Below are positions 1 through 44,906 of a stretch of 64,000 bases of DNA, in pieces. The position numbers were made by a program, and so were the translations under genes. Origin of the DNA: Buttiauxella agrestis. Lineage in GTDB: Bacteria > Pseudomonadota > Gammaproteobacteria > Enterobacterales > Enterobacteriaceae. The notes under the pieces were generated by a model, which worked only from the letters and a program-made list of their open reading frames with translations, did no database searches and was not told the DNA's origin. Each line of letters starts with the position of its first letter. Position 1 is the stretch's first letter. Location: NCBI RefSeq assembly GCF_900446255.1, contig NZ_UIGI01000001.1, positions 336,763 through 400,762 on the forward strand. The letters run 5' to 3'.

Positions 1-102
1 ATAAAAAATCAATAATTAACAGTGGGTTGTGTTTTTTGTAAATGCGTAGTTTTATTAATTAATCTTCGTTAATGTTGTCTGGTTATTTCATCTGTTACAG
101 AT

Positions 103-116
103 TTGATAAATATCGG
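103..116. promoter_or_regulatory. FNR-like site in putative feo promoter region
   Basis: The sequence TTGAT-AAAT-ATCGG matches the FNR consensus TTGAT-N4-ATCAA at 8 of 10 defined positions. E. coli feoABC is known to be activated by FNR, and synteny predicts feoA just to the left. The downstream half-site is imperfect, so this is a candidate only. Confidence 0.4.
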
Positions 117-259
117 GGCTGTTTTTAAATTGTTGCAGAAATTGATCTGCCGCAAACTTATTCTAATTGGGATGAATTGGTTAGGGTGATAACGAAATGT
201 TATTTAGACCATGCCAGCTTAAAACAAACAAATTGTGCTGAATCTGGGGTCAGGGAAAT

Positions 260-38809: not shown

Positions 38810-38936
38810 TATTGCTGATTTTAGTGGGTTTTTATAAGTGACGGAAATGTTTAGCTATTCGCTGGAAGACAATAAATGCTCTGATTTTGCCTGGTCGTGC
38901 TATGAAATAGGGGCAGCTAATCAACAAGGGGTGGGT

Positions 38937-40220
38937 ATGAGCAAGTTGGCATTGGAGTTAATTCAGAATGTGCGTCTGGTCGGGCGTGAAGGCTTGTGGC
39001 AAATAGCCATCGAAAATGGGCGCATTAACGCCATAAAACCCATGGATGATACCCAACTGGAAAGCGAGCAGATTCTAAACGGGCGAGGCGGTCTGGCGAT
39101 CCCGCCATTTATTGAGCCTCATATCCACCTTGATACAACGCAGACCGCGGGCCAACCGAACTGGAACCAGTCGGGCACTTTGTTTGAAGGCATTGAGCGC
39201 TGGGCTGAACGCAAAGCGCTACTGACGCACGAGGATGTGAAACAACGCGCCTGGCAGACGCTGAAATGGCAGATTGCGAACGGCATTCAATATGTTCGCA
39301 CGCACGTAGATGTTTCAGACCCGACGCTGACCGCGCTAAAAGCGATGCTTGAGGTGAAACAAGAAGCCGCGCCATGGATTGAGGTGCAAATCGTGGCGTT
39401 TCCGCAAGAAGGTATTCTCTCTTACCCCAACGGTGAAGCCTTGCTTGAAGAGGCGTTGCGCCTCGGAGCCGACGTGGTGGGGGCGATCCCACATTTTGAG
39501 TTCACCCGCGAGTACGGTGTTGAATCGCTGCATATAGCTTTCGCACTGGCGAAAAAATACGACCGCCCGCTGGATATTCATTGTGATGAAATTGACGATG
39601 AGCAGTCGCGTTTTGTCGAAACCGTTGCCGCTCTTGCGCTGCGCGATGGCATTGGCGAACGTGTTACCGCCAGCCATACCACGGCGATGCATTCGTACAA
39701 CGGCGCTTACACCTCGCGCTTGTTCCGCCTGTTAAAGCTTTCCGGAATTAACTTTGTCGCGAATCCGCTGGTGAATATTCATCTGCAAGGTCGGTTTGAT
39801 AATTACCCGAAACGTCGGGGCGTCACGCGCGTCAAAGAGTTACTTGAAGCGGGCATTAACGTTTGTTTTGGTCATGACGATGTGTTCGACCCGTGGTACC
39901 CGCTGGGGACGGCCAATATGTTGCAAGTGCTGCATATGGGGCTGCACGTCTGCCAGATGATGGGGTATCAGCAGATTGACGAAGGTTTAAAGCTGATTAC
40001 GGAAAATAGTGCGCGCACATTCGGGGTGAAAGAGTACGGGATTGCTGAGGGAAATGCGGCGAACCTGATTATTCTTCCGGCGCAAAGTGGTTTTGATGCG
40101 GTGCGTCGGCAGGTGCCAGTGCGCTGGTCAATACGCGCAGGGAAGGTGATTGCCACCACGCAATTGTCACAAACCTGGGTGATGTTGGATGAAGCAGAAG
40201 AGATAAAATTCGGCGGGTAA
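38937..40220 (+). CDS. codA: cytosine deaminase
   Basis: Hydrolyses cytosine to uracil and ammonia. It has 427 residues, equal to E. coli CodA and very similar throughout. Iron ligands include His62 and His64 in [22 protein letters not shown] with the catalytic Glu and following His region ([12 protein letters not shown]), and Asp in [11 protein letters not shown]. The start at 38937 follows AAGGGGTGGGT; the longer opening from 38838 enters the nir promoter. There is no codB permease beside it. It lies between nirB and tsgA, which are adjacent in E. coli. Confidence 0.95.
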
Positions 40221-41435: not shown

Positions 41436-41556
41436 GACGAGCCTGTGAATAGAAATGTAAAGTGCTTTGACAGCACTCGAGAAGAATGGATTTTAGTCAA
41501 AAACGTGATTCATTCATACAATTTATAATTCATTTGCAGCAACAGACTGGTTATAG

Positions 41557-41572
41557 AGTGATTTTGATCACA
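41557..41572. promoter_or_regulatory. CRP site between tsgA and ppiA
   Basis: AGTGA-TTTTGA-TCACA matches the CRP consensus at nine of ten core positions. It lies about 144 bp before ppiA and 122 bp before tsgA, which are divergent. E. coli ppiA is known to be under cAMP-CRP control. Confidence 0.65.
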
Positions 41573-41658
41573 ATAAAGATCGCCATCCATTAATTCATTC
41601 ATTTAACTTATTGATTTGTGTGAAAGTAAAAAACCGTAAATGGCTGGCGCAGAGTTGA

Positions 41659-42288
<630 letters not shown>

Positions 42289-42296
42289 AAAATTCC

Positions 42297-42321
42297 TGCG
42301 CGGGTTTCCTCCACCCGCGCA
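42297..42321 (+). terminator. hairpin after ppiA
   Basis: TGCGCGGGT (42297-42305) pairs with ACCCGCGCA (42313-42321), a 9-bp stem with a 7-nt loop, 9 nt past the ppiA stop. The following sequence has few T residues. Confidence 0.6.
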
Positions 42322-42356
42322 TTGACTTCCTTCCTGCACTTCCCCCGATTGCTGCT

Positions 42357-42374
42357 TATACTTGTGGCAAGTAT
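42357..42374 (+). promoter_or_regulatory. sigmaS-like -10 and inverted repeat before the yhfG-fic gene
   Basis: TATACT (42357-42362) within TTATACTTG resembles a sigmaS -10 element. It overlaps a perfect inverted repeat ATACTTG-TGG-CAAGTAT (42358-42374). E. coli fic is known to be sigmaS dependent and stationary-phase induced. The repeat could bind an autoregulator. No good -35 is seen, which fits sigmaS. Confidence 0.45.
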
Positions 42375-42398
42375 GGGTCGTCACGTTAGGGAGGCATC

Positions 42399-43001
42399 AT
42401 GGCAAAGAAACTGACCGATAAACAAAAGTCCCGCCTTTGGCAGCAATTGCGCAGCCGTTCGTTTCAGGCCAGTTCCCGGCTGGATATCCTTGAGCCTCAT
42501 GCGCAAGATGAGATTATCGCGCAGCGTGTAGAAACGATTGAACTTGGCCCGTTGCATCGCGGATTACCCTGGCTGTGTGCCATCCATCAGCAGCTTTTTC
42601 AGGATGTTTTCGACTGGGCAGGCGAGCTACGAGATGTTGATATTTCCAAAGGGGAGATACAGTTCTGCCATTTCGAGTACATCGAAAATGAAGGCAACGA
42701 TCTGATGCAAGAAATGGAGGACGAGCATTATCTGGTCGGACTTTCCAGAACTGAGTTTGTTCAGCGACTGTCGCATTACTATTGTGAAATTAACGTACTT
42801 CATCCGTTTTTTGTTGGCAGTGGTCGGGCGCAGCGCGTGTTCTTCGAGCAGTTAGCGATTCATGCCGGTTACATCCTCGATTGGAAAGACGTCTCGCCTG
42901 AAGCTTGGGCAACGGCCAATCAGACCGGGGCGCTGGGTGATTTGACGCTGCTCAACGAGATTTTCACTAAAGTGGTGAGTGAAGCGCGCGAAAGCGAATA
43001 G
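42399..43001 (+). CDS. fic: YhfG-Fic fusion: antitoxin N-terminus joined to Fic AMP-transferase
   Basis: One open frame of 200 residues preceded by AGGGAGG. Residues 1-28 (MAKKLTDKQKSRLWQQLRSR then SFQASSRL) match the E. coli YhfG antitoxin, not the E. coli Fic N-terminus. From about residue 43 the protein is Fic (ETIELGPLHRGL, FDWAGELRDVDI). The catalytic motif is HPFFVGSGRAQR at 135-146, with Val and Ser where canonical Fic motifs have Asp/Glu and Asn; as I recall, E. coli Fic is similarly degenerate (HPFRVGSGLAQR) but lacks the Arg. The inhibitory motif [S/T]xxxE[G/N], SRRLEG in YhfG, reads SSRLDI here (25-30). No separate yhfG is present between ppiA and this gene. It may be self-inhibited, relieved of inhibition, or decaying. 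Confidence 0.85.
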   Translation: MAKKLTDKQKSRLWQQLRSRSFQASSRLDILEPHAQDEIIAQRVETIELGPLHRGLPWLCAIHQQLFQDVFDWAGELRDVDISKGEIQFCHFEYIENEGNDLMQEMEDEHYLVGLSRTEFVQRLSHYYCEINVLHPFFVGSGRAQRVFFEQLAIHAGYILDWKDVSPEAWATANQTGALGDLTLLNEIFTKVVSEARESE

Positions 43002-43034
43002 AATAGCGCGGTTCTTTTTTACCCTGGAGCCGCG

Positions 43035-43598
43035 ATGCTACTGCTTATCGACAACTACGACTCATTCACCTGGAACCTTTATCAGTACTTTTGCGAATTA
43101 GGTGCAGAAGTGGTGGTGAAACGTAACGATGAGCTGACCCTTTCTGATATCAGCGCGTTAGCCCCAGAAAAGTTGGTTATCTCGCCAGGTCCCTGCACCC
43201 CCACCGAAGCAGGGATTTCTCTGGCGGCGATTACGCATTTTGCCGGACAGTTGCCGATTCTTGGGGTTTGTCTTGGTCATCAGGCGATTGCCCAGGCGTT
43301 TGGTGCGACGATTGTGCGTGCTGAAAAAGTGATGCATGGCAAAACCTCCGCTATTACGCATAACAATTCTGGCGTGTTCCACGGCCTGAACAATCCCCTT
43401 ACCGTCACGCGCTATCACTCTTTGGTTATCGATCCTGCAACATTACCCGACTGCTTTGACGTGACCGCCTGGACGGATAAGCAAGAGATTATGGGGATCC
43501 GTCACCGCGAGCTTGAGCTGGAAGGGGTGCAATTCCACCCGGAAAGTATTCTCAGTGAGCAGGGGCACCAGCTGTTAGCCAATTTCCTTAATCGTTGA
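43035..43598 (+). CDS. pabA: aminodeoxychorismate synthase glutamine amidotransferase subunit
   Basis: Supplies ammonia from glutamine to PabB for 4-aminobenzoate and folate synthesis. It has 187 residues. The class I triad is visible: Cys79 in GVCLGHQ and His/Glu in VQFHPESI near 168-172. It begins 33 bp after fic, the order known in E. coli where fic and pabA are cotranscribed. Confidence 0.97.
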
Positions 43599-43614
43599 TT
43601 TTTTATTGCCAGAT

Positions 43615-44906
<1,292 letters not shown>

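Follow-up and report, generated by a model that had tools for sequence, protein, structure and literature searches.

A fused yhfG-fic gene between ppiA and pabA

In the window analyzed here, i.e., the whole stretch of 64,000 nucleotides from the Buttiauxella agrestis contig NZ_UIGI01000001.1, the antitoxin YhfG and the toxin Fic are joined in one gene, which sits between ppiA and pabA, the site that yhfG and fic occupy in E. coli. That a single frame encodes both was the core of the original prediction for this stretch, and two domain matches bear it out: Pfam YhfG (PF10832) at residues 3-32 (40.6 bits vs. a cut-off of 22.6, E 2.3e-10, covering only profile positions 1-30 of 54) and Pfam Fic/DOC (PF02661) at residues 58-152 (56.4 bits vs. 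a cut-off of 24, E 5.5e-15). The top named match of the fused protein is from Buttiauxella agrestis (99% identity). The features of the locus are as follows.

41716..42288, + strand: ppiA, conserved upstream neighbor (synteny with E. coli)
42388..42394, + strand: ribosome-binding-like AGGGAGG; the ATG begins 4 nt past it
42399..43001, + strand: fused yhfG-fic gene, 200 amino acids, single open frame (open reading frame, translation, domain matches)
42399..42482, + strand: YhfG-derived segment, residues 1-28, with the putative inhibitory helix (predicted helix 7-26; Pfam YhfG, 5jff_B and the AlphaFold2 model)
42471..42473, + strand: Ser25, counterpart of E. coli YhfG Ser24 (invariant in the aligned fused proteins of types A-D)
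42477..42488, + strand: junction Arg27-Leu28-Asp29-Ile30, with Asp29 where the inhibitory Glu would stand
42489..42509, + strand: probable linker, residues 31-37 (LEPHAQD), neither parent clearly matched (judged by eye)
42510..42998, + strand: Fic-derived segment, residues 38-200 (domain and structure-chain matches; start set by eye)
42624..42668, + strand: flap region, residues 76-90, with Ser where two-gene Fic proteins have Tyr83
42801..42836, + strand: FIC motif HPFFVGSGRAQR, residues 135-146 (R0 is Phe, N replaced by Ser, D/E by Val)
43035..43598, + strand: pabA, conserved downstream neighbor (synteny with E. coli)

Consistent with the claim that about 28 N-terminal residues are YhfG-like, the E. 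coli YhfG chain of the solved complex (5jff_B) also matches residues 2-33 (E 1e-6); E. coli Fic chains begin to match only at residue 35, and the possibility that this is an ordinary Fic N-terminus was thus ruled out. Fic does continue from there as had been proposed, albeit from an earlier point than the suggested residue 43: the sequence match to the E. coli Fic chain (5jff_A) begins at residue 35, and the structural model pairs 32..198 with 32..198 of that chain (tag removed), i.e., with equal residue numbers. The fused protein lacks the second YhfG helix as well as the N-terminus of E. coli Fic (the DPY arm), whose absence had been predicted and whose place is taken by the YhfG part. The FIC motif, HPFFVGSGRAQR, reads as claimed, retaining His, both Gly, R1 and R2, and does not satisfy the adenylylation motif HxFx[D/E]GNGRxxR, given the Val for D/E and the Ser for Asn. 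An element similar to the ribosome-binding-like one (GGGAGG or GGAG) also lies 5' of other fused copies displayed; promoter and terminator scans returned counts not above those of shuffles, and an RNA family scan of 41500-43700 returned no hit. PADLOC output lists candidate families PDC-S04.

Distribution, junction types and selection

The fusion is genus-wide in Buttiauxella and present in several other genera of Enterobacteriaceae (denoted here by handles such as g89) rather than specific to one strain. It is found as one open frame in all 12 Buttiauxella genomes and, as had been expected from the window, none of the 12 carries a separate YhfG (searched with the fused protein at E up to 0.001), nor does the sequence retrieved around any of the fused loci. 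A sequencing or assembly error restoring the frame was ruled out by the same open frame in 12/12 congeners, and no intact yhfG was found elsewhere in these same genomes. The same architecture recurs in 3 of 6 genomes of g89, 4 of 7 of g65 (one carrying an in-frame stop), 32 of the 60 matched genomes of g168 (61 searched), the single genome of g51, one of five matched genomes of g165 (six searched) and the one matched genome of g55 (two searched), whose YhfG segment gives a weak match (BLAST E 0.004). Altogether, the 234 distinct fic DNAs, window included, comprise 54 fused, 164 two-gene (a count that includes one fused copy broken by a stop), 2 that lack YhfG and 14 distant Fic. Outside Enterobacteriaceae, no full-length match to the fusion was found in 74 matched genomes (order sample n=394). 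For E. coli, the prediction that yhfG and fic are separate, adjacent genes holds in 39 of the 40 matches listed (5,338 records lie beyond these), with the two genes overlapping; the 40th match is ppiB only. The original prediction had not anticipated the genus-wide spread, the presence in several genera, the repeated origin or the apparent movement between genera described below.

Five junction types, A to E, can be told apart by their motif and by the number of residues that separate the acid from LGP.

Type A (Buttiauxella, g89, g65): SxxLD[IV], acid to LGP 20 residues
Type B (g168, one g65): SxxLE[KE], acid to LGP 15 residues
Type C (g51): SCRLEI, acid to LGP 32 residues
Type D (g165): SLRLDD, acid to LGP 18 residues
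Type E (g55): SLQLTG, distance to LGP 6 residues

At the same site, the 80 distinct two-gene YhfG proteins have Ser in all cases, Leu in 79 (Ile in one), an acid-site residue that is Glu in 73, Asp in 5 and Gln in 2, and a next residue that is Gly in 75, Arg in 3 and Asp in 2. Among the fused proteins, an acid is present at the inhibitory site in 51 of 52 distinct sequences, Ser25 and Leu28 are invariant in the 33 aligned proteins of types A-D, Glu is retained in type B, and the Gly/Asn next to the acid is gone in types A-D. The suggestion that inhibition is weakened in the fusion finds little backing here, given that Asp also occurs in 5 of 80 two-gene YhfG proteins and type B fusions keep Glu. 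As a side observation, one g165 two-gene YhfG (L137) reads SQRIQG, Gln replacing the inhibitory Glu.

Purifying selection acts on the YhfG part with about the same strength as on the Fic core; that is, the helix is retained and does not drift. The ratios of nonsynonymous to synonymous substitution rates (dN/dS, from pooled pairwise counts) among 13 Buttiauxella genes were 0.10 (YhfG part), 0.12 (linker) and 0.09 (Fic core); the corresponding values among 30 type B genes were 0.13, 0.20 and 0.11. These values bear on the view that the protein is a decaying pseudo-enzyme and the fusion a by-product of fic losing function. Such a view can draw on the absence of the catalytic His in type E and on an in-frame stop in one type A copy; it is at odds with dN/dS of about 0.1 across both parts in the two gene sets and with the presence of the catalytic His in 51 of 52 and of R2 in 52 of 52 aligned fused proteins (stop-broken copy omitted), and we give it very little credence. 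The broken copy belongs to g65 (L098 in genome G424, the same DNA as L043) and has its stop within the Fic part; other g65 genomes carry intact fused copies.

Alternatively, the helix might be a structural prop, which fills a hydrophobic groove in place of the Fic N-terminus, with regulation having been lost. The loss of the Gly/Asn after the acid in types A-D, the change from Glu to Asp in types A and D, and the non-canonical FIC motif would all fit a prop. The invariance of Ser25 and Leu28 in the 33 rows and the acid in 51 of 52 fused proteins would not, since a plain prop would have no need of an acid meeting R2, and we regard the prop as unlikely.

The Fic core itself has changed alongside the fusion. 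The residue after HPF (R0) is Arg in 80/80 two-gene proteins and in none of the 49 proteins of types A and B; it is Arg in types C and E and Phe in type D. At flap position 83, Tyr occurs in 78 of the 80 two-gene proteins (missing in the other two) and in 0/52 fused ones, with Ser at this position also in three outgroup proteins. The same parts are lost again and again: the N-terminal arm and the flap Tyr in every fused type and R0 in three of five. A test of whether R0 and flap Tyr are lost together has at most five independent pairs to draw on, which puts a significance of 0.05 out of reach. In E. coli Fic, the DPY arm binds R0 and the backbone beside the flap (PMC5033356), and hence loss of the arm takes away the partner of R0.

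Origin of the fused alleles

A deletion between short matching sequences, as had been put forward for the window gene, is a plausible origin for type A. In two two-gene copies (L052 and L054), AACCGGCT occurs in both genes and in one and the same reading frame, at codon 25 of yhfG and codon 22 of fic, which is also where the type A junction lies. The match is absent from a third two-gene sister copy (L091), and an 8-nt match of any kind also arose in 104-191 of 500 shuffles (seven loci), so that only the place of the shared 8-mer is suggestive. A deletion between the two AACCGGCT copies would give RL followed by the DI of Fic; consequently, Asp29-Ile30 may come from the toxin's own NRLDI rather than represent a mutated inhibitory Glu.

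To place the fused genes, a main tree was built from the Fic core without its N-terminus (135 distinct rows, 151 columns), drawn from an earlier, smaller set of loci than the 234 DNAs counted above and omitting copies with an in-frame stop (L043, L098, L182), paralogues (L028, L029), a copy from a genome 73% complete in 600 contigs (L075) and matches starting past Fic residue 60. A second tree of 83 rows had the flap and active-site columns removed and type E, the outgroup and near-copies omitted. In the main tree the five types are separate, with A and B each forming a supported clade, type A next to g89 two-gene copies and type B among g168 two-gene copies. On the reduced columns, approximately unbiased (AU) tests rejected a single clade for A-D (p 3e-7) and for A+B (0.025), A+D (0.005), B+D (0.001) and A+C (0.016); the groups were defined only once the first tree was known, a practice against which the test's own note warns. 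These sequence comparisons statistically support at least three separate fusions (A, B and D), and five on the best tree.

A single ancient fusion, passed between genera by recombination with its junction diverging afterwards, would instead reconcile the types with one event. Transfer between genera is indeed likely, a B+C clade is not rejected, and A+B is rejected on full columns with only p 0.041. The rejection of A-D as one clade, together with that of A+D and B+D (p 0.005 or less), the differing linker lengths, and the position of two-gene copies as the closest relatives of A, B and D speak against one event, which we consider highly unlikely. The evidence for transfer comes from two loci, L072 and L051, in which ppiA and pabA are most like those of the own genus and fic is closer to fused g168 and g89 alleles than to own-genus two-gene copies, with few sequences per group in this comparison. 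Recombination at the conserved ppiA-pabA site thus seems to have carried fused alleles from genus to genus. The published view is that Fic is vertically inherited (PMC5033356), and the allele exchange at L072 and L051 runs counter to it.

Predicted structure and relation to the Fic classes

Two AlphaFold2 models were built on alignments of 33 and 27 fused proteins of types A-D. The model of the fused protein has a helix at residues 7-26 (block pLDDT, the predicted local distance difference test, of 82/93/84), which is predicted to lie in the groove by the active site. Alignment of the models with class I toxins starts only near residue 30; with FICD and C. difficile Fic it is full length (from residues 1-4), at 11-16% identity. 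Together with the two domain matches and the purifying selection on the helix, this fit agrees with the earlier idea of a single-piece Fic that carries its own helix. If the helix inhibited not in cis but in trans, within a domain-swapped dimer, this would account for the short linkers (15 residues in type B, 6 in type E), which give little slack, and for the poor prediction of the type B linker. The monomer models, however, align full length with chains that bear the helix in cis, and we regard a swapped dimer as decidedly unlikely.

Fic classes are defined by the location of the inhibitory helix, and the fused protein falls across them. As regards class I, it has no separate antitoxin gene and no DPY arm, and R0 is Phe, not Arg; as regards class II, the order of parts is the same, with the helix (as predicted) preceding the Fic core within the same chain. 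It is not assigned to class II because SSRLDI, which has the Ser of [S/T]xxxE[G/N], carries Asp for Glu and Ile for Gly/Asn. Nor does it have the separable, labile antitoxin of a type II toxin-antitoxin system, being a single chain.

Taken together, we consider it likely that class I two-gene Fic has been converted, repeatedly, into a cis-inhibited, class II-like single chain. Under this model, a deletion would join the inhibitory-helix half of yhfG to fic, with loss of the second antitoxin helix and of the toxin N-terminal arm; the N-terminal helix would pack in the groove by the active site, with Ser25 and Asp29 contacting R2, the second Arg in the FIC motif, and the enzyme would be made in an already inhibited state. 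Antitoxin loss could then no longer activate it, and opening would probably depend on a conformational signal or on a ligand or target, as in class II Fic. The architecture would have arisen at least three times in Enterobacteriaceae and spread in part by recombination. We would extend this only tentatively, as an idea that may well prove wrong, to the view that Fic has repeatedly been turned from a toxin-antitoxin pair into a class II-like switch in which the fused acid is a permanent regulatory or catalytic element, i.e., a housekeeping enzyme under regulation instead of a toxin.

Several points weigh against repeated conversion to a cis-inhibited form. The junction SSRLDI deviates from [S/T]xxxE[G/N], and type E lacks the catalytic His and the acid and has a weak YhfG part (BLAST E 0.004), so that it might not count as a fusion of this kind. 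A single B+C clade is not rejected on the reduced columns (p 0.131), nor is A+C on full columns (p 0.131), and once the flap and motif columns are removed, type A no longer forms a single clade in the tree. The AlphaFold2 alignments are shallow (33 and 27 rows), the other four models of each run are far less confident, and the method was presumably trained on the PDB entries compared. The structure alignments yield end points rather than residue pairs, and the contact of Asp29 with R146 is putative. Chains of E. faecalis Fic, which we take to be class III, align only from residue 32. That protein is termed class II in PMC13327609. Finally, E. coli Fic itself is, according to PMC5033356, without known catalytic activity.

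The closest known system is the class I pair of E. coli, EcFicT/EcFicA (Fic/YhfG; PDB 5JFF and 5JFZ), which shares the ppiA-pabA locus, the Fic domain (68.7% identical across residues 38-200 of E. coli Fic) and the first antitoxin helix with its Ser and acid facing R2; E. coli YhfG Ser24 touches Fic R146 (PMC5033356). Two genes there correspond to one in Buttiauxella, the fused protein lacks the second YhfG helix, the DPY arm, the R0 Arg and the flap Tyr, and R1 is Leu in E. coli Fic vs. Arg in the fused protein. Class II Fic proteins (human FICD, and C. elegans Fic-1 and C. difficile Fic, which we take to be class II) likewise carry an inhibitory helix N-terminally in the same chain. Unlike these, the fusions read SxxLD[IV] or SxxLE[KE] instead of [S/T]xxxE[G/N], and the fused form, known here from sequence and models, would derive from class I by fusion. 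In Pseudomonas Fic-1/AntF (PDB 8WT0), the class I antitoxin residues Ser24 and Glu28 contact R146 (PMC13327609); this system differs in consisting of two proteins, in its canonical HPFREGNGRAQR-type motif and in its known gyrase target. The same source reports that this class I complex can be a deAMPylase that requires the antitoxin Glu. EzeT of E. coli, an epsilon/zeta fusion, also has a cis antitoxin domain N-terminal to the toxin, yet its toxin is an unrelated kinase and the available text of PMC4826407 and PMC4803016 describes no repeated class conversion.

In the literature searched, mostly judged by title and the start of the abstract, we recognized no description of a YhfG-Fic fusion. 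Stanger et al. 2016 (PMC5033356) distinguish an Enterobacter FicT 'subgroup 2' whose members have lost five residues at the N-terminus and lack DPY, with a non-Arg R0 and a hydrophobic R1; the main text does not use the word 'fusion' or describe the N-terminus as YhfG-derived, and the S4 legend places an ecFicA homologue upstream of every ecFicT except in one E. albertii strain. Matched by this published description alone, our type B looks like the same subgroup, and the fusion would offer an explanation for this odd, published but unexplained group. Further, class I is cited as derived from class II (PMC13327609), and a conversion from class I to a class II-like form, if true, would be the reverse of that fission, with the class I/II boundary crossed several times in Enterobacteriaceae. 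Permanent tethering of the antitoxin speaks against an addiction or post-segregational role of the locus. Since two-gene relatives survive as controls, the direction of evolution, the minimal antitoxin and the function of E. coli-type Fic are all testable.

Three minor observations were made along the way. A second, distant Fic (27% identity) is encoded at another site in one of the Buttiauxella genomes (L029, G003:C66). The record titled Chryseobacterium sp. 18061 (L042) is enterobacterial (family f1), and its label looks wrong. In the window, an amidohydrolase gene (38838-40220, + strand), presumably resembling the cytosine deaminase codA, lies between nirB and tsgA, which directly adjoin in the E. 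coli record L031.
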